Assembly (NCBI RefSeq): GCF_007744675.1
Contig: NZ_CP036269.1
Location: forward strand, 744,001 to 808,000
DNA length: 64,000 nt
From: Gimesia alba
GTDB taxonomy: Bacteria > Planctomycetota > Planctomycetia > Planctomycetales > Planctomycetaceae
Direction: 5' to 3'
Shown piece after piece: positions 1,826-16,123 of the stretch (its first letter is position 1; every line of letters starts with the position of its first letter). The translations under genes were made by a program, and so were the position numbers. The notes under the pieces are model-generated. The model had not been told where the DNA came from. It made no database searches and was given only the letters and a program-made list of their open reading frames with translations.

Positions 1826-4078
1826 ATGCGAAATCGGCCCGGCAATGATCATCTGAGTTCAGAAAACGATGCGAGAGGGCAGTCGTTTCAGGTGGATCGT
1901 CTGCCCGGCGTGCGGGTCTTTCTGCTGGGATTAATCCTGATTGCGCCGTTGTTGGCGGTGAGTGGGCGTCTGCTGTTTATCCAGATGATGAATGCAGAGC
2001 ATTTTTATTCTCAGTTTGGTCGGACGACCGAATCGTTTGAAACGATTCCCAGTCGCGACGGGCGGATCGTGTCCCTTGATGGCCGCGTGTTGGCGATGGA
2101 TGTCGAACGCTTCGATCTGCAGGCGCATTATCGCTGGCTCGAGGAACCGCCGAACAAACGCTGGCTAAAACAGCAGGCTTTGATGCTTCTGGAACCGGTT
2201 GATCGTCGCAAACAAGATCAGGTCGAAGCCGCCAAAGAACAGGTGTTAGCACGCCGTCAGCAATTGTGGGATGAGTTAGCACTGGTGATGCATTCGACCT
2301 CGGATGAGTTAGCAGAGTCTCGCCAGCAGATTCAACAACGGGTGGAAACGATCATTGAAAGTGTAAATCAGCGTGCGTTGAGCAAACAGACGGCATCGCA
2401 ATCTGTGAGCACGTCTAGGGAACCTGAAACGGTCGATGCACAAGATCATCTGACAGAGTTCTGGAACCTTTTGAAAGAGACACTGACGCGGCCTCCTCGT
2501 CGTCCGCAACGCGACCGGATTGTGGTGCGCGAGGAACTTGATTATCACACGATTACATCAGGCATCCCACGCGAAATTGCGTTGGCCATTTCGGCACATC
2601 CGGAGCGGTTCCCGGGAATTAATATTCAAATTGCGACGTTACGTGAGTATCCGCAGAAGACGATCGCGCCGCATGAAATCGGCATTCGTCATCGCATTGA
2701 TGAAAAGATGCTGGCTGCTCGTAAGCAACGGTTCCCGGAAGGAGATCCGCTCGATTACCGGGAGGGAGATCGGATCGGGAAGATGGGAGTCGAGCGAACA
2801 TACGACCGTTATTTGCGTGGGCTGCGTGGGTTGAAGCGGGTGGTCAAAAACCGGCAGGGAGAGATTATTCGCACCGAGGTGATTCGTGAACCCAAGTCGG
2901 GCGATGATGTTGTACTGACTTTGAATACCCAGATTCAGGGGCAGACTCAAAAGTTGCTGGATCAGACTTTATCCGATTTACAACAGCCTGCGGATGAGAA
3001 TACGGAGACTGCGCTCGATGTTTCCTCGGGCGGTTGTGTGGTGGTATTGGATGTGCGAACCGGTGCGATTGTTGCGACCGCGTCTGCGCCGCGCTACGAT
3101 TTGAACTTGTTATTGAGTCCCTCGCCTGAAGAGTGGCAGGCTGTGCTGAATGATCCCAAACGTCCCTTGTTTCCGCGGGCGACACAGATGATGCTGCCTC
3201 CCGGGTCGACGTTTAAAACACTAACTTCAATCGCGCTACTGGAAAGCGGCAAAATTGATCCGGATGAATCTTATGCCTGTCGCGGTTATCTGGATCGACC
3301 TGATCGGCACCGCGATTATATTTATCGCCATTATGGTGTCGGGCATAATGATATCAATCTGACGCAGGCGTTATGTCAGTCCTGCAATGTGTATTTCTTT
3401 CAGGCCGCCCGCACAATGGGACCGGAAATGATTTGCCATTGGGCCAGTCAACTGGGCTTTGGCAAACCGACGGGCATCGACATTCCCGGCGAACGAGGCG
3501 GGCACCTGCCTGATCCTTCCACAAAAAAGAAAAAAGGAAGCGCTCCCTGGTATCCCGGCGATACATTGGGGATCGCCATCGGTCAGTCGCGTTTGACGGT
3601 GACTCCGTTACAGATCGCCCGCTTGATGGCGGTGGTCGCCAATGACGGAGAACTGATTGTGCCACATCTGGGGCACAGTATCGTGCCTTCCGCAGAATCC
3701 TCTACGACCACGCGACAGATGATTTCACATCCTCGTCGTTATGTGAGTGGCATTCATCCTGGCACACTGGAGCGGGTCCGCGAGGGGTTGATCAATGTGG
3801 TCGCCCACCCTCGGGGAACGGGTTATAAAACGGTGCGGATGAAAGAAATTACCATTGCCGGTAAGACGGGAACGGCGGAGACCGGTGGCGGGAAAAATGA
3901 CCACGCCTGGTTTGCGGGTTTTGTACCTGCAGAGCGACCAAAGTATGCCTTTGCAGTTGTGATTGAACATGGCGGCTCGGGTAGCCGCGTAGCGGGGCCA
4001 GTGGCGCAAAAGCTGGTTCAGTTAATGCTGGATGCCGGCTTGCTGACTCCCACAGCCGGCAAACTGCAGGCAAACTGA
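1826..4078 (+). CDS. mrdA: Penicillin-binding protein 2 (class B transpeptidase)
   Basis: The 750-residue protein crosslinks peptidoglycan peptides during elongation. One membrane anchor lies at about residues 30-50. The PBP dimerisation domain follows, and the transpeptidase domain has the acyl-serine motif GSTFK (Ser461), the SCN motif (Ser519) and KTGT (Lys680), so all three catalytic boxes are intact. It is about 120 residues longer than the 630-residue enterobacterial PBP2; the excess is a charged stretch with long Gln/Glu-rich helices at about residues 110-235. It closes the mre operon, and its stop is 11 bases from that of the convergent phosphatase gene. No rodA gene follows, although rodA often does in other bacteria. 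Confidence 0.93.
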   Translation: MRNRPGNDHLSSENDARGQSFQVDRLPGVRVFLLGLILIAPLLAVSGRLLFIQMMNAEHFYSQFGRTTESFETIPSRDGRIVSLDGRVLAMDVERFDLQAHYRWLEEPPNKRWLKQQALMLLEPVDRRKQDQVEAAKEQVLARRQQLWDELALVMHSTSDELAESRQQIQQRVETIIESVNQRALSKQTASQSVSTSREPETVDAQDHLTEFWNLLKETLTRPPRRPQRDRIVVREELDYHTITSGIPREIALAISAHPERFPGINIQIATLREYPQKTIAPHEIGIRHRIDEKMLAARKQRFPEGDPLDYREGDRIGKMGVERTYDRYLRGLRGLKRVVKNRQGEIIRTEVIREPKSGDDVVLTLNTQIQGQTQKLLDQTLSDLQQPADENTETALDVSSGGCVVVLDVRTGAIVATASAPRYDLNLLLSPSPEEWQAVLNDPKRPLFPRATQMMLPPGSTFKTLTSIALLESGKIDPDESYACRGYLDRPDRHRDYIYRHYGVGHNDINLTQALCQSCNVYFFQAARTMGPEMICHWASQLGFGKPTGIDIPGERGGHLPDPSTKKKKGSAPWYPGDTLGIAIGQSRLTVTPLQIARLMAVVANDGELIVPHLGHSIVPSAESSTTTRQMISHPRRYVSGIHPGTLERVREGLINVVAHPRGTGYKTVRMKEITIAGKTGTAETGGGKNDHAWFAGFVPAERPKYAFAVVIEHGGSGSRVAGPVAQKLVQLMLDAGLLTPTAGKLQAN

Positions 4079-4089
4079 GCCTCTCAGAT

Positions 4090-5766
4090 CTATTGCTTTT
4101 CCTGTTTTGGAGGGATCAAGGCCTGAGGTTGATCGAGGTGCAGATAGTGGCCATGATCGGCGGTGAGAATGACGACGGTTTCGTCCCAGTTGCTGTTTTT
4201 CTCGACCCAGTCCGTAATCACCTTGAACGCGGCATCGCCACTTTTGACAGCTCCGATTGAGTTATCGAGATTGTTATCATGGTTAGCCCAGTCGACGTCG
4301 CCCGCTTCGACCAGCAGCCAGAAGCCTTGTTTATTTTGACTGAGCACTTGCAATGCGGAGTCGGTCATGTCTGCCAGTGTGGGGTTTTCCAGGCGATCTG
4401 CTGCGGAATAGACTTCCGCGCTGTTTTTTAACCCGACCGCGGGTTGGTAGTCACCGTTGGCGGTCTGGAACGGGAGATGGGCAGCATATTTTTCGACGCC
4501 ATATACACCCAGCAGCCGGGTATGATTCTTGACGGCATTTTCTGTGGCCTGTTTCAGTCCCTCGCTGCCTTTGACCTTGGGAGTCCGCACGGCGACCGAA
4601 TATTTGCCTCCATTTTTGACATCGGCTTTCTTCATCGTTTCTTCGGAAATGTATTTCCAGCCGGGTACGAAATTTTCCCCATGCGATTTTGCTCCCGATG
4701 GTTTTTCAATTGTGCCAAAGCCACCACCCAGAACGACGTCGAGACCTGGGAGCGGGTCTTCGGGATGCGAAATCGAAGTTTGCCCAACCAGATCGCGGGC
4801 CAGGTCCTGGTAGTCATTGCGGCTGACGTTATGAGCATAGGCGGCGGCCGGTGTGGCGTGCGTAATAGGAACGCTGGTGACAACGCCGACCGAATAGCCT
4901 TTTTGTTGTGCCTGATGGGCAATCGTCGTGACGGGGGCTCCCGTAGGGTCGACATTGATGGCATTGTTATAGGATTTGATTCCCGCTGTCATTGATGTGG
5001 CGGTATTCGCGGAATCGGGATAAGCGTGTTCGCCGTAATTGTTGCTCGCACTTCCAATCAGGTATTTTTTATCGTTACCGGGAGTCCAGGGGTTCGGGCC
5101 ACCTTTTTGGGCGTTGTAGCCGCCACGAATTTTGCCTCCGGGGTTGGTCACGCTTTGCTGATTGACGTCGACGTTCGATCCCGCATTATGCGGTGCCGTT
5201 ACCATAAAGCCAAACTGAGTTGTACCCGCGGCGGGATAATCCTGGAAATGGAATCCGGTGCCACGTCCGCCTTGGTAATTGTCTTTGCCGGTATAATACA
5301 GGGCGGCTGCTTTGGTGGTTTGCCAGTCCATCCCATCGAAGACAAACAGGATGATATTCTTCTTTCCTGCTTTGAGGGCTGCCTGCTGGATTTCATAGAG
5401 ATTGGTTTGATCCAGGTAGTCGGCCTTGGGATTCACACTGTTTTCAGGCAGGAAACCGTAAATGGTTTCCAAAGCTTTTGCACTGCGATAAGGGCTGTTC
5501 TTACCGGTATAGGAATTCAGATCGATTCCGTTCGGCTTCCCTTTGGTACCGAAGGTATAGACGGGAATCAGACGTAATGAATGGTTTGACCACTGGGTAT
5601 AGTTTTCAGGATCGAAGCCCCAATGTGCGACGGGGCTTTTCTTGTTCTGGATCGCGGCGGTCTGGATTTTGCGGATGTGGTCCTGGCTTGGTTTTTCTGC
5701 TGAAGCAGATGCAAGACTTGCCAGTATAATCAGCGCTAACAGGCTGGAAGAAACAGCGCAGTTCAT
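4090..5766 (-). CDS. Secreted alkaline phosphatase
   Basis: The 558-residue product starts with a Sec signal peptide (hydrophobic residues 5-22, cleavage near ASASA). It belongs to the PhoA-type alkaline phosphatases: the first metal site is in FVFDGMDW, the catalytic hydroxyl region reads DSANTATSMTAG, the second metal pair is in VEAGDVDWANHD and the third in TADHGH. The likely role is release of phosphate from organic esters in the periplasm. The protein ends about 16 residues after TADHGH, so the C-terminal His that completes zinc site 1 in Escherichia PhoA (His412 region) is not visible. It may be a subfamily that ends here or a shortened gene. It converges on the PBP2 gene. Confidence 0.85.
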   Translation of the reverse strand: MNCAVSSSLLALIILASLASASAEKPSQDHIRKIQTAAIQNKKSPVAHWGFDPENYTQWSNHSLRLIPVYTFGTKGKPNGIDLNSYTGKNSPYRSAKALETIYGFLPENSVNPKADYLDQTNLYEIQQAALKAGKKNIILFVFDGMDWQTTKAAALYYTGKDNYQGGRGTGFHFQDYPAAGTTQFGFMVTAPHNAGSNVDVNQQSVTNPGGKIRGGYNAQKGGPNPWTPGNDKKYLIGSASNNYGEHAYPDSANTATSMTAGIKSYNNAINVDPTGAPVTTIAHQAQQKGYSVGVVTSVPITHATPAAAYAHNVSRNDYQDLARDLVGQTSISHPEDPLPGLDVVLGGGFGTIEKPSGAKSHGENFVPGWKYISEETMKKADVKNGGKYSVAVRTPKVKGSEGLKQATENAVKNHTRLLGVYGVEKYAAHLPFQTANGDYQPAVGLKNSAEVYSAADRLENPTLADMTDSALQVLSQNKQGFWLLVEAGDVDWANHDNNLDNSIGAVKSGDAAFKVITDWVEKNSNWDETVVILTADHGHYLHLDQPQALIPPKQEKQ

Positions 5767-5966
5767 TTGATCCTCTGTGTATTTTGTAACCAGTAAGTAA
5801 CAGGAGGGAAACAGGAAGGTTAAACTCTATTATAGCCAGAGACGTCTGGGGTTTGTAAATAGCCCCGACGTGAAGCCTGCGTTAAGTTTTGAAGTTTAAA
5901 ACGCCGTTTTTCGCCTGAAAATGCAGAATAGTGCTGCTTGATGCCTGAGAAGGAGGCAGAGCTGGT

Positions 5967-6827
5967 TCAGACTTGTCGATAGTGGAAGGGGATACGTTCC
6001 AGTATTCCTTCCTGGAAGACACTGTAAAGCTCCAAGTCATCCATGTGTACATATCCAATGTGGCAGCCACAAGTCTGGTTGGTGCAGGGGCTTTCTTGTA
6101 AATGGGATTCAAAATCAGACTCGTAAATATTTCCGATTGGCTCTTTCATAAAATGACAGCGGAATATGGTGCCGGTGCCATCTACAGAAATCACACTCGA
6201 CCCGCAGCGACAACTGCGTCCCAGGCTCGAATGATATTGCGTGTTAAGTTGAAACAGGGGGTCAATGGTTTCGAATCGTTTCAATGTGTCATCGTTATAT
6301 TTCTTGCCGGAACTTTTATAGGCGTTGACCCATAAATAGATATCTGGTGGGAGCTCTCGGCGTAATTGCTCGATTTCTTCCAGGTCTTCCGGGAGTCCGA
6401 CTGTTCCGACGCTATGTGAGATTCCCCGTTGCGATAACTGTTGTGACTGAGACAGGAATTTTTTGCGTGTCGTCTGCGAGGGGTGATAAGTACACCAGAG
6501 GGCCAGCTTTTGTGCGTTTGCGTTTTCGATCCAATCCAGATTGTAAGACAGATTTGTTTGTGCCACGACTTTTTCAATCTGGTCCAGACTTGTTAAGTGA
6601 CAGATGGCCTCCTGGTACCAGCGTCTGGTTAACGCTTCGCCCCACGGCGTAAAGAAAATCGAGAGCCGGTCCTGTTTGCGGGTTGAGATCCAGTCGCCGA
6701 ACTTTTCGAGAGCCCGTCGATCGGTTTTCAACTCGGCTGCCGTTTCATGGACTTTGGCGAAGGGGCAGTAATGGCAATCGTAATTGCAACTGGATAAAGG
6801 CCCGCGATAGAGGATGCTGAGCTTCAT
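5967..6827 (-). CDS. STM4011 family radical SAM protein
   Basis: The 286-residue enzyme has the radical SAM cluster motif C14-x3-C18-x2-C21 in SSCNYDCHYCPF. A second Cys-rich block near the C-terminus (SCRCGS, then FRCHF, then CTNQTCGC) looks like a SPASM/twitch-type site for an auxiliary iron-sulfur cluster. The opening MKLSILYRGPLSSCNYDC matches what I know of the family named after Salmonella STM4011. The start is placed at the second Met (6827) because it overlaps the STM4012 stop as ATGA, the same coupling used at the two previous junctions; a Met two codons earlier (6833) is possible. Substrate is unknown; peptide or protein modification is a guess from the SPASM-like part. It is the last gene of the leftward operon. 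Confidence 0.87.
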   Translation of the reverse strand: MKLSILYRGPLSSCNYDCHYCPFAKVHETAAELKTDRRALEKFGDWISTRKQDRLSIFFTPWGEALTRRWYQEAICHLTSLDQIEKVVAQTNLSYNLDWIENANAQKLALWCTYHPSQTTRKKFLSQSQQLSQRGISHSVGTVGLPEDLEEIEQLRRELPPDIYLWVNAYKSSGKKYNDDTLKRFETIDPLFQLNTQYHSSLGRSCRCGSSVISVDGTGTIFRCHFMKEPIGNIYESDFESHLQESPCTNQTCGCHIGYVHMDDLELYSVFQEGILERIPFHYRQV

Positions 6828-8143
6828 AGACATTGAAAACTTTCGGTGCGTTGCTGAACGTTCTCAGAATAGAGCCAGGGACCAATTGTATCGGATCGTT
6901 CCATGCCCGCTGATGTCAAAGTGATGGAATCGGCGGTGATCGTCGCCAGATGGTGCCCGGGGAGTTCCTTCAGTTCCGGGAAGTGAATTAACACGTCTGC
7001 GCCGAATCGGTCTGAATAAAATTGCCGCGATAAGCCGTCAGTCTGCAATAGTGACAGAATGACGAAGCGTCTTTGTTGTTCCTCTCGATCCAGCTGGAAT
7101 CCATATTCGGCAAAACCAAACGACTGGGGTTCCTTGTCCAGAAAATCGGCGATGATCGCAGCCACACTGCTGCGGCCGACCGCGTATTCGTTCGAGTAGT
7201 GAAACTCCGTGGTATAGGATCTGGCACCACAGCCCAACCCGAGCATCCCGTCAGTCTGGCATTGATACTGCACGTCAGTTTGTGAGTTGGAATGTTTGGC
7301 ACGGAACATTCGCAAAGAAAGTTGTTCGTAACCTTGATTGAGTAAAAAGTCGCGACCTGCGCGGTAGAGTGTGAGCCGGTGGTCATCCCAGTCCTTTAAC
7401 TTTCTTCCCAAACCTGTCAGAGGACGCACATAAAGCGGATAGAGATATAACTCCTGTGGCTGATAGTCCAAGGCCTGTTGTAGCGAATCGAGCCAGGAAT
7501 CCACTGTCTGACCGTCGGCGCCGTAGATAAGATCGAGATTAAGCGTCGAGAATCCCGTGTTTTTGATGAGATCCAGTGCCTGATGGATTTCCTTCCGTTT
7601 TTGCGGGCGGCCCAGATTCCGCGTTTCCTGTTCGTAAAATGATTGAATCCCCATGCTCAATCGATCAATTCCAAAGTCCTTCAACAGTTGTACTTTTTCA
7701 GAGGTCAGTGTGGCGGGTGACGCTTCGATGCAAGCAGGGATGGCACCGGGTTGATAGTGCATTTCGCTGGTCAGAATCGCGAACAACTGATCCAGTTCAT
7801 GGCGATTCAGCCAGGTGGGCGTGCCTCCGCCGATCGCCAGTTGGGAAAAGCGCGCCTGGGGAAGTTGCTTGCGAATCTGCTCTGCCTGGATTTGAAGTTG
7901 TTGCAGATACTGGTCGGCAAGATCGCCTTGCGGGTTTGAGAGTGTAAACAGATTACAAAAGCCGCAGCGGTACTCGCAAAAGGGCAGATGCACATACAGG
8001 GAGAGGGCATTCTGGTTTTCTGTTTCCCAGATCGTGCGAATCGAACGTGCCGCATCAAAAGGGCGGTAGGCAGATTTATGTGGGTACGAATAGCTGTATG
8101 AGACAAAGGGAGTGTCCTGCAGCATGCTTTGAAGCTGGTTCAT
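6824..8143 (-). CDS. STM4012 family radical SAM protein (HemN-like)
   Basis: A 439-residue HemN/HemW-type radical SAM protein. The cluster motif is C56-x3-C60-x2-C63 in HLPFCEYRCGFCNL, followed by the GGGTPT SAM-binding loop at 105-110 and a C-terminal winged-helix-like region (LSLLQTDGLS). Coproporphyrinogen oxidases share this architecture, but genes in this cassette form a separate group named after Salmonella STM4012 with no assigned reaction. The start at 8143 overlaps the STM4013 stop as ATGA; a Met ten codons upstream (8173) would overlap much more and is less likely. It sits between STM4013 and STM4011 in a tightly coupled run, so the two radical SAM enzymes are probably made in similar amounts and act in one pathway. 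Confidence 0.88.
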   Translation of the reverse strand: MNQLQSMLQDTPFVSYSYSYPHKSAYRPFDAARSIRTIWETENQNALSLYVHLPFCEYRCGFCNLFTLSNPQGDLADQYLQQLQIQAEQIRKQLPQARFSQLAIGGGTPTWLNRHELDQLFAILTSEMHYQPGAIPACIEASPATLTSEKVQLLKDFGIDRLSMGIQSFYEQETRNLGRPQKRKEIHQALDLIKNTGFSTLNLDLIYGADGQTVDSWLDSLQQALDYQPQELYLYPLYVRPLTGLGRKLKDWDDHRLTLYRAGRDFLLNQGYEQLSLRMFRAKHSNSQTDVQYQCQTDGMLGLGCGARSYTTEFHYSNEYAVGRSSVAAIIADFLDKEPQSFGFAEYGFQLDREEQQRRFVILSLLQTDGLSRQFYSDRFGADVLIHFPELKELPGHHLATITADSITLTSAGMERSDTIGPWLYSENVQQRTESFQCL

Positions 8144-8955
8144 TTCCGGTCCCCTCTCTGCGGCAAGAGGCATTCAAGATAAGGGACTTCCCAGACAACC
8201 GGGTGTGAAATGCGGTGGCCCCAGTAGCCCTCTTCACCGAAGGCAGTGCCATGATCGGAACAGATAATACAGAGCAGGGGCGCCCGTTTCTGCATCGCGG
8301 CGAACAGGGGAGGGAGTTGCGAATCCGCATAAGCCAGCGCGGCGGCTTGCGTTTCGGTAGAATCTTCTGTCGCATCCTCGGTGAAAATACAGCTCGGTTG
8401 ATGTGTGGCGGAAATGTTCAGAAACAAGAACAGACGTTGTTCGGATGATTGCTGCTGCAGCGTGTCCAGAATACAGTCGATCTGGTGTTTTGTGGAAAAA
8501 CGATTGGTAACGCTAAACGTTTCATGCCAATGACTTTCCTGAAACAGATCTGGCAATGTGTTTCCTAAAGGGCTTTGCTGATTGAAAAAGCCGACACCGC
8601 CGATGCAGAGAGTGTGATAATTGTGTTGGGCAAACCCGGCGACGATATTGGGAGCCTGGAACAGACATGTTTCCTCTGTGGTTGTTTCACTGCCGGGGAA
8701 CTCGACACCAAACAGGCGTGGATGTCGCCCCGGCTCTATGGGAGTGGGCAGGAAGCCTGCAAAAAACGCCTGATGAGCGGCGTAAGTGAAGTTCCCGGGC
8801 GTGTGTCGTTTCTCCCAACCCGTTTTCGGGAGCAGGCTTTCCAGATGAGGCGTTAAGCCGTTCTGGAGTGCAGTCACCGCAACATCGTAGCGCAACGAAT
8901 CAAGCGTGATGAACAGGATATCGTGCGTTCCAAGGCAGGTGCGGGCATTAATCAT
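8140..8955 (-). CDS. STM4013/SEN3800 family hydrolase (alkaline phosphatase superfamily)
   Basis: A 271-residue cytoplasmic-looking protein (no signal peptide) of the sulfatase/alkaline phosphatase fold. It shows the N-terminal metal motif FITLDSLRYD (Asp19), a candidate nucleophile Thr57 in GNFTYAAHQAFFAGF, and the C-terminal metal motif CSDHG near residue 234 followed by GYWGHRISHP. The CxPSR signature of sulfatases is absent, so a phospho- or other ester hydrolase or transferase is more likely. Its start overlaps the HAD gene stop by ATGA (8952-8955) and its stop overlaps the STM4012 start in the same way. The family takes its name from Salmonella loci and has no established substrate. Confidence 0.87.
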   Translation of the reverse strand: MINARTCLGTHDILFITLDSLRYDVAVTALQNGLTPHLESLLPKTGWEKRHTPGNFTYAAHQAFFAGFLPTPIEPGRHPRLFGVEFPGSETTTEETCLFQAPNIVAGFAQHNYHTLCIGGVGFFNQQSPLGNTLPDLFQESHWHETFSVTNRFSTKHQIDCILDTLQQQSSEQRLFLFLNISATHQPSCIFTEDATEDSTETQAAALAYADSQLPPLFAAMQKRAPLLCIICSDHGTAFGEEGYWGHRISHPVVWEVPYLECLLPQRGDRK

Positions 8956-9620
8956 GGTAATAAAGATCGGAGGGAATGAACGGATGGAATCTGGTAATGT
9001 GGCTGCGGTAACTCAACGGGGAATTCTCGATTCAGGGAGATCCAACAGGCTTGCATACCGGAATCGATGGCACCGACTATATCTGCCTGAGGATGATCTC
9101 CAATATAGAGTGCCTGCTTGCTGGGAACTGAAAGAGATTGTAATGCCAGCTGGAATAATTGCGGGTCTGGTTTCTCAAATTCTGTCTCTCCCGAGATGAA
9201 AATATGATCGATGTGTTGATCGATGTGCGATGCCTTGAGCTTGGCGCGTTGAACTTTTACAGATCCGTTTGTGACGACCGCCAGGGCATACCGTTGTTGT
9301 AACTGGTTGAGTAGTGTAAGGCAATTCGGTTCGGGCTGAATATATTGCGGCATGTTTTCAGCAAAATCGTTCCAGAGTTCTTGCGAGGTCCAATGCGGGA
9401 AATGGTGATCGGCGAGCCACTGAAAAAAAACGAGGCGTTCAGAATAGCCAAGCTGATCATGTTCTTTGATTTCCTGAAGTGTCTGTTGGGAAGCGCGAGG
9501 GGAGAGGTGTGGTGCCGCACGCTGTAGAAGGCTGCAAAAGTAGCCGTGCACGGCGGTAGAACGATCGATGAGCGTGTTATCAAGATCGAACAGAATGGCA
9601 TTCAAATTTGCATTGATCAT
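8952..9620 (-). CDS. HAD-IA family hydrolase
   Basis: A 222-residue haloacid dehalogenase superfamily protein. Motif I is FDLDNTL (nucleophile Asp12, acid Asp14), motif II VVTNGS, motif III the Lys in EFEKPDP and motif IV GDHPQADI. A helical cap between motifs I and II makes it subclass IA, typical of small-molecule phosphatases. The start at 9620 gives MINANLNAILFDLDNT; the frame is open for 42 codons upstream, but these run into the preceding LRR gene and do not resemble HAD sequence. It is coupled to STM4013 through an ATGA overlap, which places it firmly in the radical SAM operon. I do not recall an HAD gene as a standard member of the Salmonella cassette. Confidence 0.88.
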   Translation of the reverse strand: MINANLNAILFDLDNTLIDRSTAVHGYFCSLLQRAAPHLSPRASQQTLQEIKEHDQLGYSERLVFFQWLADHHFPHWTSQELWNDFAENMPQYIQPEPNCLTLLNQLQQRYALAVVTNGSVKVQRAKLKASHIDQHIDHIFISGETEFEKPDPQLFQLALQSLSVPSKQALYIGDHPQADIVGAIDSGMQACWISLNREFPVELPQPHYQIPSVHSLRSLLP

Positions 9621-9675
9621 TTTGGCAGAGGTGCTGATAAGACTTATTGAAAGAGAGCCCCGGTTACCAGAGAGT

Positions 9676-10539
9676 TCAAGTCTCAACCAGCGGGTGATAG
9701 TCGTCCGGGTCATCAAAACCGGCCGTCCAGGCGATGGCTTGAGCACAGGTTTTCATATCGGGGGGGACACGTATGATATAGCGTCTGTCTGTGGAGGGAC
9801 AGTTCACAGAGACGCAGACAAGGTCTTCGTCTCCTTCTAATGGGACTTTCAATAATTCCCGTTTCCCACCCGGGTCCTGGTCGGTATCCAGAACCTCTGC
9901 TTCGACCGATTTAAAGAAGCGATCGAAGCCAACCCGTTCAAGCATGACTCGTCTAAGTTCAGAGTTGGGTTCGCTGAGAATTTCTTCGCTCATAATTTCT
10001 TCTGGATGAAAAGCAATGCGCTGATTGATGGGAACACCCCGCCAGCGTAGTTGTGATTCATCAATTGACTCTGGTAGTTCGGTAATCCCAGTGTGGGCGA
10101 TGTCAATCCAGGAGGAAATCTGCAATTGTTCCGGAAGCGATGTCAGAGACGTACAGCCGCTGATGTCCAATTGTGAAATGCGAGTCAACCAGTCGGGAAG
10201 CGCTTTCAGGTTTGTGCAATTTCGGGCGATGAGATTTCCAAAGCGGATTCTGCCTTGTTGAGGCCATGCTGTTAATTGAGGGCAATCGCTGATATTTAGA
10301 AAACAGACATCCAGATTTTCAGGAAGTTGTGTGAGTCCTGTGCAGCCGGCAAGGATGAGGGTTCCTGTTTTCAAACCATCGGGAAGTGTTTTCAGTTTTC
10401 GGCAGCCATCCAGGTTGATTCGATACTCCACTTGGATGTCATCCGGGAGATGAGTGACCTCACTACCAGGGATTTCAAGTTCGTAGCATTTCATACCTGC
10501 TGATAGTTGATCTTTGTTATTTAGCGTGGTTGAATTCAT
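9676..10539 (-). CDS. Leucine-rich repeat protein with C-terminal DUF6745-like domain
   Basis: A 287-residue protein without a signal peptide. Residues about 30-165 form short leucine-rich repeats of the plain L-L-P type (KLKTLPDGL, GLTQLPENL, LKALPDWL, SLTSLPEQL, GITELPESI). The C-terminal part, about 175-287, has features I associate with DUF6745: LERVGFDRFF, a glycine turn, CVSVNCPSTDRRYIIRVPP and a closing QAIAWTAGF. The function of that domain is not known. It lies 55 bases upstream of the HAD gene on the same strand, so it probably belongs to the leftward operon. Two LRR proteins (this and STM4015) in one locus suggest protein recognition, but this is inference. Confidence 0.72.
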   Translation of the reverse strand: MNSTTLNNKDQLSAGMKCYELEIPGSEVTHLPDDIQVEYRINLDGCRKLKTLPDGLKTGTLILAGCTGLTQLPENLDVCFLNISDCPQLTAWPQQGRIRFGNLIARNCTNLKALPDWLTRISQLDISGCTSLTSLPEQLQISSWIDIAHTGITELPESIDESQLRWRGVPINQRIAFHPEEIMSEEILSEPNSELRRVMLERVGFDRFFKSVEAEVLDTDQDPGGKRELLKVPLEGDEDLVCVSVNCPSTDRRYIIRVPPDMKTCAQAIAWTAGFDDPDDYHPLVET

Positions 10540-10639
10540 ATCACAGATGTCCGTTTTGAAGATTTGAATTGCAGGGCCCCCGGTAGAAACATTTTTGTGT
10601 GAAATGTCTCATGTGGTGTCATCAGCGATGGATGCTGAT

Positions 10640-10661
10640 AAAAACAGAATACGGGTATTCT
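10640..10661 (-). terminator. Possible intrinsic terminator after the TGHxHR gene
   Basis: On the minus strand a near-perfect inverted repeat (7-base arms AGAATAC and GTATTCT, two-base centre) is followed by G and five T. It lies 36 bases after the stop of the small gene at 10697-11062 and about 100 bases before the LRR gene start. The stem is AT-rich and short, so termination may be partial. Confidence 0.4.
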
Positions 10662-10696
10662 CCGTTTCGGTTTTCTGTATTGCTTTTGGTCGTGAG

Positions 10697-11062
10697 CTAA
10701 TCGATGACTCTGCGAATTGCTTCGGGAGAATATTCACGTTGAATCCAGACGCGATACTTGCCTTGAGGTAATTCGATGGCCGCGTGTTCCTGATGAATGA
10801 GCGTGGCACTTTCCGCGGTCACTTCCAGGTAGCGATCGCCGTCGTCTTGATCACTTTCGAATAACTCTGCCACATCGCGCTCTTGAATGCGATGCATGTG
10901 CCCGGTCAGTTCGCCTTCTGCCAGAATGCAGTGTGGGAGCTTTTTTAATTTTGGTGGAATCTTTGAGACGGCTGCGATCAAAACATCTCCATGTCGCCAC
11001 AGGGGAACATGCTTCCGGGGGAGTATCTTTTTGAGGCTGGAATTGAATTTCGTCATGATCAT
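10697..11062 (-). CDS. Small TGHxHR-motif protein of unknown function
   Basis: A 121-residue soluble protein. Visible conserved-looking elements are WRHGDVLIA near residue 23, ILAEGELTGHMHRI near 45-58, HQEHAAIELPQGKYRVW near 90-106 and a C-terminal REYSPEAIRRV. The His-rich pattern (TGHxHR, then HxEHxxI) suggests metal or nucleotide contact, but no reaction can be named. I have an impression that proteins of this type occur beside DUF6745 proteins, which fits the next gene; that would need a search. A Met two codons in (11056) is an alternative start. It is transcribed away from STM4015, and the two genes share a 110-base gap. Confidence 0.68.
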   Translation of the reverse strand: MIMTKFNSSLKKILPRKHVPLWRHGDVLIAAVSKIPPKLKKLPHCILAEGELTGHMHRIQERDVAELFESDQDDGDRYLEVTAESATLIHQEHAAIELPQGKYRVWIQREYSPEAIRRVID

Positions 11063-11094
11063 TCACTTTGTTAAGGTTCTCGATTCACGTTGGA

Positions 11095-11124
11095 TTGCAA
11101 AACGACACTGTTCTATTGTATAAG
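11095..11124 (+). promoter_or_regulatory. Sigma-70-type promoter for STM4015-STM4014
   Basis: TTGCAA (11095-11100), an 18-base spacer and TATAAG (11119-11124) would give a transcript starting near 11131. This lies upstream of the GTG at 11173 but downstream of the first in-frame ATG at 11068, so it also argues for the later start. Prediction by eye only. Confidence 0.45.
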
Positions 11125-11172
11125 GATGCGGGAGAAGGTCAATTCATAGTCAGCATTCAGGAGTATTTCATT

Positions 11173-12108
11173 GTGATCGGCGAACATGCGAACGAGTTTG
11201 GAGGGTTGCCTGTTGAAGAGTTTGATCTTAAAGCAGGCGTACAAAATGCCTCAGGAATTGCTTATCGACTGACATTGGGGTACGAGAGAGAAGAAGAGGG
11301 CGTCGAATTTTCTTCGTTGCTGGAGAAGTTCTTGAGCTCTCCACAGGTCGGCGAGGCCCGGGCACTCATTATTGGTTGCTGGGATTCTGCCTTTGAAGGG
11401 GGTGGTTCTGAAAGTTGTGTTGAGCAACTGGTGGCTGCCAGCGAAAAACTTTCCGGTTTGAGACATCTTTTTCTGGGTGATATAACTTATGAAGAGAGTG
11501 AAATCTCCTGGATTGTGCAAACGGATCTTTCTGCTTTGTTTGATGCCTTTCCGCAATTAGAGGAACTGCGGGTGCGTGGTGCCAATGGTCTGAGCTTGGG
11601 GCGTGCCGATCATCCGCATTTAAAAAAACTGATTATTGAATCCGGAGGTTTAGGAGCGGATGTGGTTCGTGAAGTGACTGCGGCACAATTTCCGGCACTG
11701 GAGCATCTGGAGCTTTGGCTGGGTACAGAGAACTATGGAGGGGATGCTTCGATTGCGGATGTCGAGCCCATACTGACTGGAGTGTTGTTTCCGAACTTAA
11801 AATATCTGGGATTGCGTGACAGCGAATTTGCAGACGAGATTGCCAAAGCGATCGCCGTTTCTCCCATTCTCGATCAACTCGAAGTTTTGGATCTTTCTCT
11901 GGGGACGCTCGGTGATGAGGGAGCACAAGCATTATTAAACAGTAAACGGCTGAATCATCTGAAAAAGCTGGATCTGCACTATCACTTCCTGAGTGAGGAA
12001 ATGTGTAAGCAGTTTAAGAGTCTGGGGATTGAAGTCGATCTCGATGATCAACAGGAGCCGGATGTGTACGATGGTGTTGAAGAACGTTATTGTGCCGTTA
12101 CGGAATAA
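11173..12108 (+). CDS. STM4015 family leucine-rich repeat protein
   Basis: A 311-residue protein with no signal peptide. After an N-terminal domain (GEHANEFGGLPVEEFD, then SLLEKFLSSPQVGEARALIIG) come leucine-rich repeats of ribonuclease-inhibitor-like length (LRHLFLGDI, LEELRVRGA, LKKLIIES, LEHLELWLG, LKYLGLRDS, LEVLDLSLG, LKKLDLHYH), and the protein ends ERYCAVTE. This matches the STM4015 family of the Salmonella cassette. The start is GTG 11173 because AGGAG lies nine bases before it and a promoter-like pair overlaps the earlier in-frame codons; the frame itself is open from ATG 11068. STM4014 follows after 19 bases. A scaffold or substrate-recognition role for the radical SAM enzymes is a guess. 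Confidence 0.85.
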   Translation: MIGEHANEFGGLPVEEFDLKAGVQNASGIAYRLTLGYEREEEGVEFSSLLEKFLSSPQVGEARALIIGCWDSAFEGGGSESCVEQLVAASEKLSGLRHLFLGDITYEESEISWIVQTDLSALFDAFPQLEELRVRGANGLSLGRADHPHLKKLIIESGGLGADVVREVTAAQFPALEHLELWLGTENYGGDASIADVEPILTGVLFPNLKYLGLRDSEFADEIAKAIAVSPILDQLEVLDLSLGTLGDEGAQALLNSKRLNHLKKLDLHYHFLSEEMCKQFKSLGIEVDLDDQQEPDVYDGVEERYCAVTE

Positions 12109-12127
12109 ACGAATTTGAGATACTCGC

Positions 12128-13312
12128 ATGGCAGATCGATTACCGCGCGTTTCCCTCGGTCAAGTTGTCCTGATTGGGAATCCTGAAAACCGGCGCGTTC
12201 AGTTCTTTCAAGAGGCGTTACAGCATTTTGGGCAATCACCGGCGACGGTGATTGCTTACTGCCGGCTACTACAGGACCCTTCCCAATTGGGTGATGTACT
12301 GAAGCCGGGCACGATTCTCAGAATTGAATCGCCGGGAGAGAACTTCGACGTTGAAAAACAAATATTGTGCCGGGGAGCAGCTGAAGCCGAAGAAGAAGGG
12401 GCTCCCTTTCTACCCGTTGAGCAAGTAGGACAACTTTTTTTTGATCGGGGGCTGATCATTCACCCACGGCAGTGGTATCTGGGATTTCGTTCTTTGATGC
12501 GTGAAGTCAAACAGCAGCTTGCTGCAGTCGACGATGTTTTCTGTATGAATTCTCCCGCGGATCTGATCGAGTTTTTCGATAAAACCGAATGTCATGCAAC
12601 ATGTGAGGCTGCAGGATATCCTGTCGCTGAATCATTCAATCCGATAAGCTCCTTTGAGGAATTGATGGAGACGATGCAGCAGCAGAACTGCCAGCGCGTC
12701 TTTCTCAAACTGGCTCACGGTTCTTCTGCTTCGGGTGTGGTTGCCTTTTCTCATCATTCAAACCGAACAGAAGTAGTTACGTCGGCAGAACTGGTGCGGG
12801 AGAAGGGGGGCGATCAGCTCTATAATTCTTTAAAACTTCGCCGGTATACTGATCTGGATGAAATCCAGGTGTTGATTGATTTACTCTGCCGAGAGCGTGT
12901 GCATGTTGAGAAATGGTTGCCGAAGGCTTCACTGAAACGGGGGACTACGTTTGATTTGCGCGTGGTGGTGATCAATGGTCGTGCGCGGCATTTTGTGGTC
13001 AGAGAAAGTCGCAGCCCGCTGACCAATCTCCATTTGGGAAACCGGCGCGGGGACGGCAACCAGTTGATTCAATCAATGGGTGAATCGAACTGGTCTGACA
13101 CGTTGAATCTCTGCGAACAGGTAGCGGGCCTTTATCCAGAGAGTTTTCAGATAGGCGTTGATTTACTGTTAACCCCCGGGTTTCGACAACGTTTTATTCT
13201 GGAACTGAATGCGTTTGGTGATTTGTTACCTGAAGTCCGTTTTGAAGGCCGGGATACCTATCAGTCTGAAGTCTGGTCATTACTGCGCAATGCGAGCCAA
13301 TACATTCCATAA
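12128..13312 (+). CDS. STM4014 family ATP-grasp protein
   Basis: A 394-residue soluble protein of ATP-grasp type. An N-terminal pre-grasp part (VVLIGNPENRRVQFF) is followed by FLKLAHGSSASGVVAF (nucleotide-binding Lys and glycine loop), HVEKWLPKA (adenine-contacting Glu), FDLRVVVINGRARHFVVRES and the metal-binding end GVDLLLTPGFRQRFILELNAFGDLLP (Asp, Glu, Asn). ATP-grasp enzymes join a carboxylate to an amine or thiol through an acyl phosphate. It is the partner of STM4015 in the rightward arm of the locus, and in Salmonella the same families cluster. Substrate unknown; a peptide ligase role would fit beside two radical SAM enzymes but is inference. Confidence 0.86.
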   Translation: MADRLPRVSLGQVVLIGNPENRRVQFFQEALQHFGQSPATVIAYCRLLQDPSQLGDVLKPGTILRIESPGENFDVEKQILCRGAAEAEEEGAPFLPVEQVGQLFFDRGLIIHPRQWYLGFRSLMREVKQQLAAVDDVFCMNSPADLIEFFDKTECHATCEAAGYPVAESFNPISSFEELMETMQQQNCQRVFLKLAHGSSASGVVAFSHHSNRTEVVTSAELVREKGGDQLYNSLKLRRYTDLDEIQVLIDLLCRERVHVEKWLPKASLKRGTTFDLRVVVINGRARHFVVRESRSPLTNLHLGNRRGDGNQLIQSMGESNWSDTLNLCEQVAGLYPESFQIGVDLLLTPGFRQRFILELNAFGDLLPEVRFEGRDTYQSEVWSLLRNASQYIP

Positions 13313-13380
13313 AAAAATCCCGACTCAACGACATACGTTGGTCAGGATTGATACAAGCGGAAAATGAGAAAATAGCAGAC

Positions 13381-13800
13381 TTAATTCAGTTTGAAGTCGA
13401 TGACATTTTCTCCCGAGTCCTGGACTTCTGCAGAGAGTCCCGATTTCTTGGGATCCCCATAACTGGCAGGGATCATTGGTTTTGCCTGCTCAGCTTTTGC
13501 TTCTTCCGTTCCCGGCATGGGAATTTCGCCCCCTGACGTAATCGTCACGGTGTGCGATCCCGGGATGGCTCCTGTTGCTTTCCCTGTTTTGAGCGAGTAT
13601 TTTCCTGAAGCATCTGTTGAGCCAACCGCTGACGGACCTGATTTCGGAATGAACACGACGTTGGCGTCAGAGACAGGATTGCCTTTCATTGTCACGGTTC
13701 CGGTCACTACAACCGTCTGGGGAGCGTCGTCAGGCCCCCCTCCACAACCGGAAATGAGTACCGTGATCAGAGGTAGCAGTAACAAACTATAATTTCGCAT
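13381..13800 (-). CDS. Small lipoprotein with carboxypeptidase-regulatory-like domain
   Basis: A 139-residue lipoprotein. The signal peptide ends in the lipobox LISGC (Cys19), followed by GGG. The mature part is one beta-sandwich of the transthyretin/carboxypeptidase-regulatory type: VTGTVTMKGNPVSDANVVFIP, then STDASGKYSL, then IPGSHTVTI, closing with NVIDFKL. Planctomycetes carry many such genes beside DUF1559 genes; this one follows a DUF1559 gene (13894-14811) with a terminator-like hairpin in the 93-base gap. A surface or periplasmic structural role is likely, but no function is known. Two further copies of the fold in the window, at 15531 and 59355, share the arrangement. Confidence 0.82.
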   Translation of the reverse strand: MRNYSLLLLPLITVLISGCGGGPDDAPQTVVVTGTVTMKGNPVSDANVVFIPKSGPSAVGSTDASGKYSLKTGKATGAIPGSHTVTITSGGEIPMPGTEEAKAEQAKPMIPASYGDPKKSGLSAEVQDSGENVIDFKLN

Positions 13801-13814
13801 GTCAGACCCTTATG

Positions 13815-13854
13815 AAAAATGCAGCCTGCTTCAATTGAACCAAACAGGCTGCAT
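13815..13854 (-). terminator. Hairpin plus T-run between a DUF1559 gene and its lipoprotein gene
   Basis: On the minus strand a perfect 10-base stem (ATGCAGCCTG and CAGGCTGCAT, 16-base loop) runs directly into five T. It lies 39 bases after the DUF1559 stop and 15 bases before the lipoprotein ATG, so it could end the first message or let only part of the transcription through. Confidence 0.7.
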
Positions 13855-13893
13855 CGAATTAAAAATCATATCAAATCGTAATCTGTGATGAGA

Positions 13894-14811
13894 CTAAAAT
13901 TCGCCAATCGTTTCCCCACCTTGGATAGAAGCTAGGGCACGATAGGTTCCCAAGTCGATATTTTCACTCACGAAGCGAACGGCTCCGTCACCCATTAAGA
14001 AGTGGGCTCCCCCTTCGTGCTGACTGGCGAACGAATAATTTTGTGGCCAGTCTCCGGCAGAATAGGTGTTGTTAATATAGTGATTCAGAGGGACCGCACA
14101 GTTGGCAGTTGAACCATTGAACCACCACCACCAGTTGTGCGTACACTCTCTGGGAAGTGCTTCTCCTGCAGCGAACGTCGTACTCAGTCCATCGGTCACA
14201 TCACGAATCCTGGTCACGTTGACTTTGCTTGAACCATTGCGGCACATAAAGCCATTTCCCCAGTCAAGGCCATTGGTATTACCAGCGTTACGGCCTTTCG
14301 AATCTGAATGGATAAATGATCCCCAGGCCCAGTTATTTCCTGAGACCAGTTTGTAACTGGTGACCGCTCTTTCATCCCCCACATTTGCACGGCCTCCTAA
14401 GATACCGCTATCCGTACCAGGATCAGACGGGCAGAGCATGACTGTGAGGATGTTTCTGGAAACTGTGGTATTGGCAGGGTCAGATAGACGTTGTCCCTGG
14501 TTAATCTGGTTATAGAGGTTTGCCTGATCGATAAAGGGTAAGATGTAGCAAATCCAGCTCATGCCACGTTGTGTGTTGTTATAGCCGCCATCCAGCGTGT
14601 GCTTGTAGCTCATCGGGAACATTTTGTGAGTTTCATGGTAATTGTGGAGGGCCAGCCCGATCTGTTTCATGTTGTTTTTACAGGTACTTCGGCGGGCTGC
14701 CTCACGGGCCTGTTGTACTGCGGGTAGGAGCAGGGCGATTAATATTGCGATGATGGCGATCACCACAAGTAGTTCAATTAACGTAAAAGCGCGTCTCGAA
14801 AATTGACTCAT
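13894..14811 (-). CDS. DUF1559 domain protein with prepilin-type leader
   Basis: A 305-residue protein beginning [17 protein letters not shown], a type IV prepilin class III leader (cleavage expected before Phe) and a hydrophobic helix, followed by the planctomycete signature [18 protein letters not shown] and ALHNYHE. The DUF1559 body ends with a [19 protein letters not shown] block and the family close TIGEF. These proteins are thought to form pseudopilin-like surface or periplasmic assemblies; the role is not proven. The start at 14811 has GAGGAGAG about ten bases upstream; the frame is open for 33 codons further, without support. It precedes the lipoprotein gene at 13381. Confidence 0.88.
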
Positions 14812-15530
14812 TGGCACGTTTCTCTCCTCGGTCATGAAAATTAAATTAAGGACAAAAAGCGACGAAAGCTCATCATTGAAATGACAAACAGTCTGCTGAT
14901 AGGCAAGCAATCTGAATTAGAAAATGAAAGGATTTATCTTCGGATACGGAGCAAAAACTCCTTTAGATCAGAATATTTAATTATGTGCATTTATTGATGT
15001 TTTATTCAAGTCTACAGTGGTTTGAATTGTTCCGCTATCAAATTTAGTTGATAAATAAAGAGTTTGGGGAATTCATTATTTTTCTCTGTGCTCAGTTGAC
15101 TTTCATCATTTGTCTGTTCATTCAAGAGATCAATACCAAGTGAGCAAGTTCTGGGTGCGACCAGTCTGAAACCTCCCGGTTATGACAGGGGGCAGAAAGC
15201 TGTCAGGCGCATCTTGATAGAAGAATGAGTCGCGGTCAGGCTTACAACAGTTGGTGGACTCGACAGGTGATCCGGGCCATGAGCGCATGAAGTCTGCAGC
15301 GAGAATCGGATTTCGAAAATTATTCGAAAGAGAGGAAAGCTGTAAAGACTATTTAGATGATTTGTGAGAAAGAGCAGGAGTTGCTTCAGTTCAATTACCA
15401 GGAATGGGATCGAGATGAGATAAATGAGCCGCCTCACTTCGTTTAAGCGAGTTGCTACGTAAGTAGCAGGGATGGTTTATCTTCTTCTGCCGAATCCCTT
15501 CCTGGTGATTGAGGTTGGAACAGGGGGAGT
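14812..15530. other. Gene-poor region upstream of a DUF1559 gene
   Basis: This 719-base gap lies between two leftward gene pairs. It must hold the promoter of the DUF1559 gene and the 3' end of the upstream lipoprotein transcript. An 85-codon frame at 15180-15437 on the minus strand has no ribosome site or recognisable composition and is not called. The only clear structure is the inverted repeat at 15392-15511, listed separately. Confidence 0.5.
15392..15511. repeat. Large imperfect inverted repeat, possible structured RNA end
   Basis: Arms 15392-15412 and 15491-15511 are complementary over 17 of 21 positions without gaps and more with one shift. An inner match (AGATAAA at 15418-15424 with TTTATCT at 15476-15482) extends the stem. 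Two small hairpins lie in the loop (CTCACTT against AAGCGAG, and TGCTAC against GTAGCA). It starts 20 bases past the stop of the leftward lipoprotein gene, so it may be a stabilising or terminating 3' structure. Confidence 0.45.
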
Positions 15531-16001
15531 TTATTTCATATCCAGGTCGAACGTGTTTTCGCCTGCATTGACTGTGAAGAGCACACCGCTCGATTCAGGA
15601 TTCCGGTATTTTTTGGGAATTTCGGGCCATTCTTTTTCGGGAAGCTCTTTGCCTTCATTGACTGCTTGTGCCTCTTCTGGTGTCAATTCAACAGTCGGCG
15701 GCGTAATGCCAATTTGATATTTGCCAGTCAGAACTGCAGGCTCACGGCGCATCCGAAGTGCGTATGATCCATCAGCGGCGATTGCACTTGAGGCAGTGAT
15801 TCCTTTGTCTTTGTGCAGGAAGACAATGGATGTGCCTTCAGGGACAGGTTTTCCATTGAACGTGACTTTTCCGGTTACCGTTCCCGTTTCTCCCTTGGGT
15901 AGATTGCTTCCACCACCACAGCCAACAAGACAAATGACTGCTACGATCAGGCCACTCATGAAAACCTGTTTTGGTTGATTCATCATGAATAAATTGTGCA
16001 T
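15531..16001 (-). CDS. Small lipoprotein with carboxypeptidase-regulatory-like domain
   Basis: A 156-residue lipoprotein. The start at 16001 (MHNLFMMNQPKQ) has AGGGA five bases upstream, while the open frame reaches 40 codons further with no support. The lipobox is CLVGC followed by GGG. The mature part has the regulatory-like beta-sandwich pattern GTVTGKVTFNGKPVPEGT, then SAIAADGSYALRM, then VLTGKYQIGI, with a Glu/Pro-rich loop and a closing ENTFDLDM. It follows the DUF1559 gene at 16124-17101, from which a strong hairpin separates it. Same family as the genes at 13381, 59355 and 60202. Confidence 0.82.
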   Translation of the reverse strand: MHNLFMMNQPKQVFMSGLIVAVICLVGCGGGSNLPKGETGTVTGKVTFNGKPVPEGTSIVFLHKDKGITASSAIAADGSYALRMRREPAVLTGKYQIGITPPTVELTPEEAQAVNEGKELPEKEWPEIPKKYRNPESSGVLFTVNAGENTFDLDMK

Positions 16002-16078
16002 TTCTTCCCTTATCTTTTCGGTGTATGTAGACCATTGCGGTTTGAATGAGAAATCAAAGAAGTGAATCATTACGCATG

Positions 16079-16115
16079 AAAAAATTGCAGGCGGACATCG
16101 ACTGCCCGCCTGCAA
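16079..16115 (-). terminator. Strong hairpin plus T-run between DUF1559 and lipoprotein genes
   Basis: On the minus strand a perfect 10-base GC-rich stem (TTGCAGGCGG and CCGCCTGCAA, 11-base loop) is followed at once by six T. It lies nine bases after the DUF1559 stop codon and 78 bases before the lipoprotein start. Confidence 0.82.
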
Positions 16116-16123
16116 GCTCAAGA

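Follow-up and report, generated by a model that had tools for sequence, protein, structure and literature searches.

A conserved C-terminal tail ending in glutamate was identified on the STM4015-family LRR protein of Gimesia alba, which is encoded next to an ATP-grasp protein in a cluster that also holds two radical SAM enzymes; this tail is the new observation of the present analysis. In the 64,000-nucleotide stretch of DNA that was analyzed (the window), the tail reads RYCAVTE (12085 to 12105, forward strand), with the terminal Glu directly before the stop codon, and the family pattern is R-[YF]-x-A-V-x-E. The last residue is Glu in 101 of 104 STM4015 copies, Arg stands at position -7 in 99, Tyr or Phe at -6 in 98, and the complete R-[YF]-x4-E ending occurs in 95. 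Once near-copies had been removed, the final Glu was present in 49/50 sequences, and each of the 74 loci having a complete STM4015 end carries at least one Glu-ending copy. The three exceptions (in loci L058, L090, and L092) each adjoin other copies that end in Glu. With all six-frame ORFs as background, conservation amounts to 0.3 to 2.2 bits per position from -30 to -8, a weakly conserved acidic linker, and then to 2.6 bits at -7, 5.2 at -6, and 4.6 at -1. In Salmonella (YMNAMYTE) and Bacteroides (YYPMITE), the final Glu is kept while the remainder of the tail differs. Some extra STM4015 copies are without the tail, with endings such as YRD or QPAP, or run on beyond it.

Membership of the five families to which the earlier note had assigned these genes was established by hmmscan with the NCBIfam STM4011 to STM4015 models (NF038073, NF006067, NF038075, NF038074, and NF038076), each of which scored over its curated cut-off at 5967 to 13312. 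Three of the genes lie on the reverse strand and encode an STM4011-family radical SAM protein (5967 to 6833; 288 aa; 405 bits, cut-off 200), a HemN/HemW-like radical SAM protein of the STM4012 family (6824 to 8173; 449 aa; 579 bits, cut-off 380), and an STM4013/SEN3800-family hydrolase of the alkaline-phosphatase/sulfatase superfamily (8140 to 8955; 271 aa; 401 bits, cut-off 250). The forward strand carries the genes for the STM4015-family LRR protein (11173 to 12108; 311 aa; 359 bits, cut-off 275) and the STM4014-family ATP-grasp protein (12128 to 13312; 394 aa; 389 bits, cut-off 175). The earlier description of one compact locus of five families was right about the families and omitted three genes that sit between the two divergent blocks made by the STM genes, all on the reverse strand: those for a HAD-type phosphatase (8952 to 9620; Pfam HAD_2, 96 bits), an accessory LRR protein with a C-terminal DUF6745 (9676 to 10539; 287 aa; PF20530, 79 bits, cut-off 27), and an accessory small protein (10697 to 11062; 121 aa) with the motifs GExTGHxH and HxEH. 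The true start of STM4015 is likely GTG 11173, which has AGGAG ahead of it, within a listed ORF of 11068 to 12108. For the HAD gene, ATG 9620 is a likelier start than the listed GTG 9746, since the strongest profile matches start only at residue 49.

The five genes are annotated in the order 4015-4014-4013-4012-4011 on a Salmonella Senftenberg plasmid record, in agreement with the grouping previously claimed for Salmonella, and likewise in Streptomyces, Deinococcus, Methylobacterium, and Paenibacillus records. The Salmonella record holds the same five families as the window, with a Cof-type HAD and without the DUF6745 pair, whereas the window block is split and divergent and includes the HAD, DUF6745, and small-protein genes. 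Gene-neighborhood comparison across many phyla established that the five genes co-occur: all were found in 54 of 64 well-flanked loci, a grouping far from chance. Record labels with these families comprise Planctomycetota, Actinomycetota, Cyanobacteriota, Myxococcota, Chloroflexota, Deinococcota, Bacillota, Bacteroidota, and Pseudomonadota (the last including Salmonella). Ten genomes have a locus that is seemingly incomplete or divergent; STM4014 was over its cut-off in all ten, and STM4015 reached at least 200 bits in eight and its cut-off in four. Six genomes retain a Glu-ending STM4015 apart from STM4011. Among 294 Planctomycetota genomes, STM4011 and STM4015 reached at least 100 bits in 10 genomes each (both in 9), and exceeded their cut-offs in 8 and 7, respectively (both in 6). 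In Gemmata-type loci, the LRR proteins occupying the place of STM4015 (ends GDYE, GDIE, and GDWE) score 47 to 68 bits versus a cut-off of 275, and were rejected as support for the Glu tail on account of this weak membership. Out of 15 relatives found among viral contigs, the cluster is present on L119 only. The Salmonella genes had no megablast match in E. coli, a search that more distant relatives could escape. In an STM4011 phylogeny (52 of 90 rows kept once near-copies were removed), Actinomycetota form one clade, unlike Planctomycetota, Myxococcota, Cyanobacteriota, and Chloroflexota; the window row has no firm neighbors in this tree, which thus hints at transfer.

The fold class of STM4014 was established from a predicted model (pLDDT 94.6), for which the best Foldseek matches in the PDB are ArgX with LysW, and LysX (E 1.3e-12). 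Their lead is small: PsnB (a graspetide ligase) and DdlB follow at about 1e-11, RimK is near, and inositol-phosphate kinases come next; at about 14% identity to ArgX/LysX and TM 0.5 to 0.7, the modeled similarity is superfamily-level. Sequence profile searches, matching short stretches, rank RimK (E 2.5e-5) and LysX (E 3.2e-5) first. STM4011 combines a CX3CX2C motif (C16, C20, and C23) with a SPASM-like second set (C208-x12-G221-x4-C226, C250, C255, and C257), and all eight cysteines are present in 31/31 aligned members; Pfam SPASM matched below its cut-off only. STM4012 has C66, C70, and C73 in all 28 aligned members, its nearest PDB sequences being HemN (1olt, E 2.6e-55) and the methyltransferase NocN (9p2u, E 3.7e-35). 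STM4013 matches Pfam Sulfatase (41 bits, cut-off 25) and, weakly, an arylsulfatase, a phosphodiesterase, and a phosphonate monoester hydrolase in the PDB; D18, T56, D233, H234, and H246 occur in 24/24 aligned members, and T56 is likely the Thr nucleophile. HAD-type genes of other kinds recur at STM loci, either fused to STM4011, as in Bacteroides (Pfam Hydrolase_3, 77 bits), or following it, as with the Cof-type HAD of Salmonella. Of 90 loci, 37 have the LRR-DUF6745 gene, and all 37 also have the small-protein gene, which in turn occurs only with it. The small protein has no Pfam match and no PDB match with E below 1, and His 55, 57, 90, and 93 are invariant in an alignment of 11 members.

The earlier note had proposed a modification or natural-product pathway directed at a protein or peptide recognized by the LRR protein. 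Modification of a protein or peptide is still the best reading for the cluster, but the role of the LRR protein as recognizer of some other peptide is not supported in detail. The strongest signal lies in the LRR protein itself, with its nearly invariant Glu tail, encoded beside an ATP-grasp enzyme whose nearest folds ligate onto a carrier's terminal Glu. It is tentatively proposed, as plausible though short of probable, that STM4015 is a carrier or substrate, that its terminal Glu is the reaction site of STM4014, and that the group tethered there is altered by the radical SAM enzymes. The target protein of the cluster would then be STM4015, with the terminal Glu of the conserved heptapeptide after the LRR body as acceptor; STM4014, as a LysX/RimK-type ATP-grasp ligase, would activate this Glu and join an amino compound to it; STM4011 (SPASM-like) and STM4012 (HemN-like) would subsequently remodel the tethered group or residues of the tail; and STM4013, plus the HAD phosphatase where present, may strip off a group of the phosphate or sulfate type. 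The finished product could be freed, as from LysW, or remain part of the LRR protein as a built-in group. The version in which a LysX-like ligase charges the free C-terminal Glu of the LRR protein, and two radical SAM enzymes then remodel it into an enzymatically built group permanently attached to a recognition protein, is distinctly doubtful; in this version, several STM4015 copies with differing LRR bodies in one locus would bring the same group to different partners.

RimK, the ribosomal protein S6 glutamate ligase that is the top sequence match of STM4014, works on a protein C-terminus that ends in Glu; it has another protein substrate than STM4015 and is not known to have radical SAM partners. 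According to an excerpt of the carrier-protein paper PMC10433800, the carrier LysW has Zn-binding Cys and ends in EDWGE, and its C-terminal Glu is where LysX attaches the substrate. The likeness to LysW/LysX (ArgX) consists of a dedicated Glu-ending protein and a putative ligase whose nearest folds, narrowly ahead of PsnB and DdlB, are LysX/ArgX. However, the LysW carrier binds Zn and carries EDWGE, whereas STM4015, with its LRR body and RYxAVxE tail, does not conform to that carrier type, and the kinase, reductase, and aminotransferase of the LysW system are replaced in the STM cluster by radical SAM enzymes. Among the eight window proteins, NCBIfam and Pfam searches found no LysK-like release peptidase and no LysZ-, LysY-, or LysJ-type kinase, reductase, or aminotransferase. 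In pearlin pathways, according to an excerpt of PMC9303977, the product is built onto the C-terminal end of a ribosomal carrier, and one of the described cases involves a radical SAM enzyme; neither a PEARL nor a short carrier peptide nor a metalloprotease turned up in the same searches of the eight proteins. In weighing the proposal, the Glu tail, its conservation, the same-locus copies, the STM4014 folds, gene linkage, and the lack of a fusion were counted for it, and the predicted order of the tail, the conserved C-terminus of STM4012, the lack of a release peptidase in the locus, a tail unlike EDWGE, the superfamily-level STM4014 likeness, the tail-less extra copies, and the Gemmata-type LRR proteins against it.

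A doubtful alternative, which keeps the idea of the earlier note in modified form, is that the tail serves for docking or recognition and is not where the reaction takes place: it would pack on the LRR or bind the enzymes, with STM4015 positioning some other substrate. The AlphaFold2 model of STM4015 (mean pLDDT 96.4) predicts an ordered tail (mean 96 for residues 301 to 310 and 87 for E311), and from this confidence the tail probably lies docked against the LRR instead of projecting freely. The nearest solved structure, at 40% identity, is 2ra8, a structural-genomics entry named uncharacterized for the Bacteroides fragilis STM4015 homologue Q64V53, in which the chain shows SYPMITE and then eight more residues, taken as a tag. 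Same-locus STM4015 copies have bodies about 56% identical and last seven residues 65% identical (40 pairs, the exceptional copies included); differing LRR bodies with a tail pattern mostly kept would also fit adaptors sharing one docking signal. By sequence comparison, a conserved C-terminal end is not unique to STM4015, because STM4012, the DUF6745 protein, and the small protein have one too (summed bits over the last seven positions of 20.1 for STM4015, and 18.3, 22.6, and 18.8, respectively), although these three ends come after conserved sequence, unlike the STM4015 tail. On the other hand, a docking role requires neither a chain end exactly at Glu, which is nearly always seen, nor the persistence of this Glu in Salmonella and Bacteroides despite a differing tail, and the adjoining ligase is similar to enzymes working on a C-terminal Glu. 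When stop-ended ORFs of at least 25 aa in 104 sources (the window and L031 to L133) were scanned for the tail, the outcome also spoke against docking, with no strict match outside STM4015 and seven loose ones, namely four short cyanobacterial ORFs and three longer ORFs. Three of these cyanobacterial ORFs (one in L044 and two in L067), located beside STM4015, are probably remnants. In the Gimesia genome, a degenerate tail pattern occurs in five places, one of which is STM4015, compared to one for a reversed-pattern control. No ORF in 134 records scored above 40 bits with two of eight profiles, and therefore no STM4015-STM4014 fusion burying the tail was seen, in a search whose one-sequence HAD profile failed to detect the Bacteroides STM4011-HAD fusion.

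RiPP-like chemistry is unlikely; in this reading, the conserved Tyr/Phe, Ala, or Val of the tail would be modified directly by the radical SAM enzymes, with the ATP-grasp protein forming a graspetide-like internal ester or amide. This would suit the cysteine set of STM4011, as SPASM-like sets are common in peptide maturases, and the STM4014 model, which is matched nearly as well by PsnB, by a Chryseobacterium RiPP ligase, and by MdnC as by LysX. However, graspetides derive from short precursors with conserved Thr/Ser/Lys donors and Asp/Glu acceptors in the core, and their links require Ser/Thr or Lys partners. STM4015 departs from this, being a folded protein of 311 aa rather than a short peptide, with Ser/Thr at position -2 in just 45/104 copies (Gly in 37/104) and Lys in the last seven residues of none of the 104. 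A classic RiPP with a separate short precursor was rejected on the ORF scan.

A small-molecule pathway with STM4015 as a merely structural or regulatory subunit appears quite improbable: the phosphatase-type enzymes (STM4013 and HAD) and HemN-like STM4012 are compatible with it, yet it would leave both the terminal Glu and the Glu-ending STM4015 kept apart from STM4011 in six genomes without a reason. An anti-phage defense system, suggested by sporadic distribution, plasmid copies, and weak PADLOC matches, is highly implausible and was rejected, as these matches are confined to the radical SAM proteins (viperin-like, 17 to 18 bits for STM4011 and STM4012; PDC-M51A, 27 bits for STM4012), with none for the other six locus proteins. 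RNA regulation was likewise rejected: Rfam had no match in window positions 4000 to 18000, and its four matches in seven related loci were all different, one being a tRNA in L063 that lies immediately upstream of STM4015.

In the library of open-licence papers that was searched, no function was found for the STM4011 to STM4015 families, consistent with the earlier statement that they carry locus-tag names only, and neither a paper naming 2RA8/Q64V53 nor one on DUF6745 was found; in excerpts of a sigma54 study and a positive-selection study, STM4013 and STM4015, respectively, appear as table rows only. For families with such names only, a testable idea of function follows from the STM4015 tail together with the class of the ligase. 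If the C-terminal peptide of STM4015 is indeed modified in the presence of its partners, the cluster would be a carrier or protein-tail modification system in which a repeat protein undergoes both LysX-type ligation and radical SAM chemistry.

The stretch at 5967-13312 of the window was identified in the earlier note as an STM4011-STM4015 locus, and family-model searches bear this out: the set is complete, with all five proteins scoring above the curated NCBIfam cut-offs. The genes for the radical SAM proteins STM4011 and STM4012 and the hydrolase STM4013 overlap slightly on the minus strand, and those for the LRR protein STM4015 and the ATP-grasp protein STM4014 lie on the plus strand. The two blocks are separated by genes for a HAD hydrolase, an LRR protein with a DUF6745 domain (Pfam PF20530) and a 121-aa protein for which a Pfam search gave no match. 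The likely start of STM4015 is the GTG at 11173, preceded by AGGAG, giving 311 aa. An adjoining alkaline-phosphatase-family gene (4090-5766; Pfam PF00245) is probably unrelated to the locus. On the other side lie genes for two DUF1559 proteins whose N-termini bear pilin-like methylation motifs (13894-14910 and 16124-17101) and, about 4 kb past the locus, a glutamine synthetase gene (17482-18921; Pfam Gln-synt_C, 432 bits). The Salmonella locus L036 likewise has glnA nearby; this proximity may be coincidence.

The five genes occur together well beyond the window. Using the authors' own profiles, 90 STM4011 loci were compared, namely eight from plasmids, 80 from genomes (the best 80 of at least 583 confirmed relatives in a genome scan), the contig L119 and the window; in this sample all five genes are present in 70 of 90 loci, and in 54 of the 64 that are flanked by 7 kb or more on each side. 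The matches listed include Planctomycetota, Cyanobacteriota, Myxococcota, Chloroflexota, Actinomycetota, one Acidobacteriota bin and one Lentisphaerota bin, and tblastn of STM4011 matched 13 plasmid records from eight genera, including Salmonella. The STM4011 of one record titled Comamonas joins Corallococcus in the tree with full support, reflecting either mislabelling or transfer. In the Acidobacteriota bin (L063), a tRNA (Rfam RF00005; 5633-5722) directly upstream of STM4015 is a possible insertion point. L119, filed as viral in IMG/VR, carries a complete Bacteroides-type set at 1318-6513; in the related Bacteroides finegoldii plasmid locus L035 (5513-9530), STM4013 and STM4012 are reduced to fragments between STM4014 and STM4011, and STM4015 bears an N-terminal WGR domain.

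Among 294 Planctomycetota genomes, STM4011 and STM4015 were each found in 10 at 100 bits or more, nine having both; above the curated cut-offs, the counts were 8, 7 and six, respectively. The unpartnered STM4011 (genome G048) is a remnant next to STM4014 and STM4015 remnants, all three genes surviving as fragments only, and the unpartnered STM4015 (G044) lacks the conserved C-terminal tail described below and resembles a general LRR protein. In G181, the 5′ parts of the STM4015 and HAD genes are gone. These decaying copies of the cluster (loci L009, L013 and L143) belong to same-genus genomes. The cluster seems dispensable.

Accessory genes vary. HAD-type phosphatases recur beside STM4013 in the window, fused to STM4011 in Bacteroides (L035) and following STM4011 in Salmonella. 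DUF6745 and the small 121-aa protein are present together in 37 of the 90 loci (genome loci being the best 80 of at least 583) and neither occurs alone; they constitute an optional module, because both are missing from the same-genus locus L002, where the HAD gene adjoins STM4015, and PF20530 was found in 0 of 20 other relatives searched. The small protein (10697-11062), seen at these loci only alongside DUF6745, has invariant GE-x-TGH-x-H and H-x-EH residues in 11 members compared, and may bind metal.

STM4011 keeps cysteines C16, C20 and C23, together with C208, C226, C250, C255 and C257, in 31 of 31 sequences; its C-x12-G-x4-C spacing agrees with the N-terminal half of the SPASM motif, and a PDB sequence search gave no match at E 0.01. 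The HemN-like STM4012 has invariant C66, C70 and C73 (28/28). STM4013 retains D18, T56, D233, H234 and H246 in all 24 sequences, a pattern that would suit an alkaline-phosphatase-superfamily enzyme with a Thr nucleophile.

STM4015 is distinguished by a conserved end that follows a weakly conserved acidic linker. Of 104 C-termini compared, 101 end in Glu (49 of 50 with near-copies removed). Arg occupies position -7 in 99 of them, Tyr or Phe position -6 in 98, Ala position -4 in 73 and Val position -3 in 80, and the full R-[YF]-x4-E motif is found in 95; the Salmonella protein ends in YTE and that of Bacteroides in ITE. Over these seven positions, STM4015 carries 20.1 bits, versus 1.9 for STM4011, 5.2 for STM4013 and 3.2 for STM4014; STM4012 (18.3), DUF6745 (22.6) and the small protein (18.8) also have conserved ends. 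Up to four STM4015 copies occur per locus (in Herpetosiphon, Nostoc and Pyxidicoccus), and the three non-Glu endings belong to extra copies. In each of the 74 listed loci whose STM4015 end is complete, one copy or more ends in Glu. Same-locus pairs average 56% identity in the body versus 65% in the last seven residues (40 pairs, exceptional copies counted). Short cyanobacterial ORFs beside STM4015 (L044, 5937-6053; L067, 2885-3007 and 5136-5249) carry similar tails (SRYYALYE, DRYYSVWE and DRYSALHE); these are probably remnants or, less likely, genes for short tail-bearing peptides.

Ten genomes with a seemingly incomplete or divergent locus were searched whole: STM4014 exceeds its cut-off in all ten, and STM4015 reaches at least 200 bits in eight and its cut-off in four. 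Six of them (G309-G314) encode STM4015 elsewhere than beside STM4011, each with one or more Glu-ending copies; extra copies in two of these lack the Glu end, one finishing in YRD and one extending beyond the tail. The two genomes below 200 bits are Gemmata-type. The Gemmata-type loci L040 (10797-12308) and L042 (9392-12069) have a divergent STM4014 and, instead of STM4015, other LRR proteins (47-68 bits against the STM4015 model; two with WGR and TIGR02996 domains) ending in GDYE, GDIE and GDWE. Among the matches listed, the R-[YF]-x4-E motif was missing from the lower-scoring LRR proteins.

The predicted STM4015 model (mean pLDDT 96.4, 59 sequences) is an LRR fold in which the tail is confident as well, arguing against a floppy arm. 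Its closest solved structure, 2ra8, is that of an STM4015 homologue from Bacteroides fragilis (E 8e-24, 40% identity) and has a deposited sequence extending to the Glu end. The predicted STM4014 model (mean pLDDT 94.6, 27 sequences) matches, by first appearance, ArgX with LysW, LysX, the graspetide ligase PsnB, DdlB, the inositol-phosphate kinase PPIP5K2, a Chryseobacterium RiPP ligase, RimK and MdnC; this order is suggestive only, because the E-values (1.3e-12 to about 3e-10) lie close. Independently, a sequence profile placed RimK and LysX at the top, over short stretches. According to PMC10433800, LysX attaches an amino acid to LysW, at the gamma-carboxyl of that protein's C-terminal Glu, and the E54A change in haloarchaeal ArgW produces an arginine auxotroph.

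STM4015 and STM4014 are proposed to work similarly to the LysW/LysX pair; however, the EDWGE end and the Zn-binding type of carrier are missing, and none of the later enzymes of that pathway was found among the eight proteins of the locus, which therefore falls outside the LysW/LysX system. In a tentative reading, put at somewhat under an even chance, STM4015 is itself a protein substrate or carrier: STM4014 would work on its terminal Glu, and STM4011 and STM4012 on a group tethered to it. The analysis establishes the co-occurrence, the tail and the fold class of STM4014, and from these we infer the reaction, the order of the steps and the product. The open-licence papers searched yielded no function for the system. 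The earlier note was right about the identity and interest of the locus, and its view of the LRR protein as a recognizer of another protein or peptide is probably wrong, STM4015 being the proposed substrate or carrier. The STM4011-STM4015 system is real and widespread.
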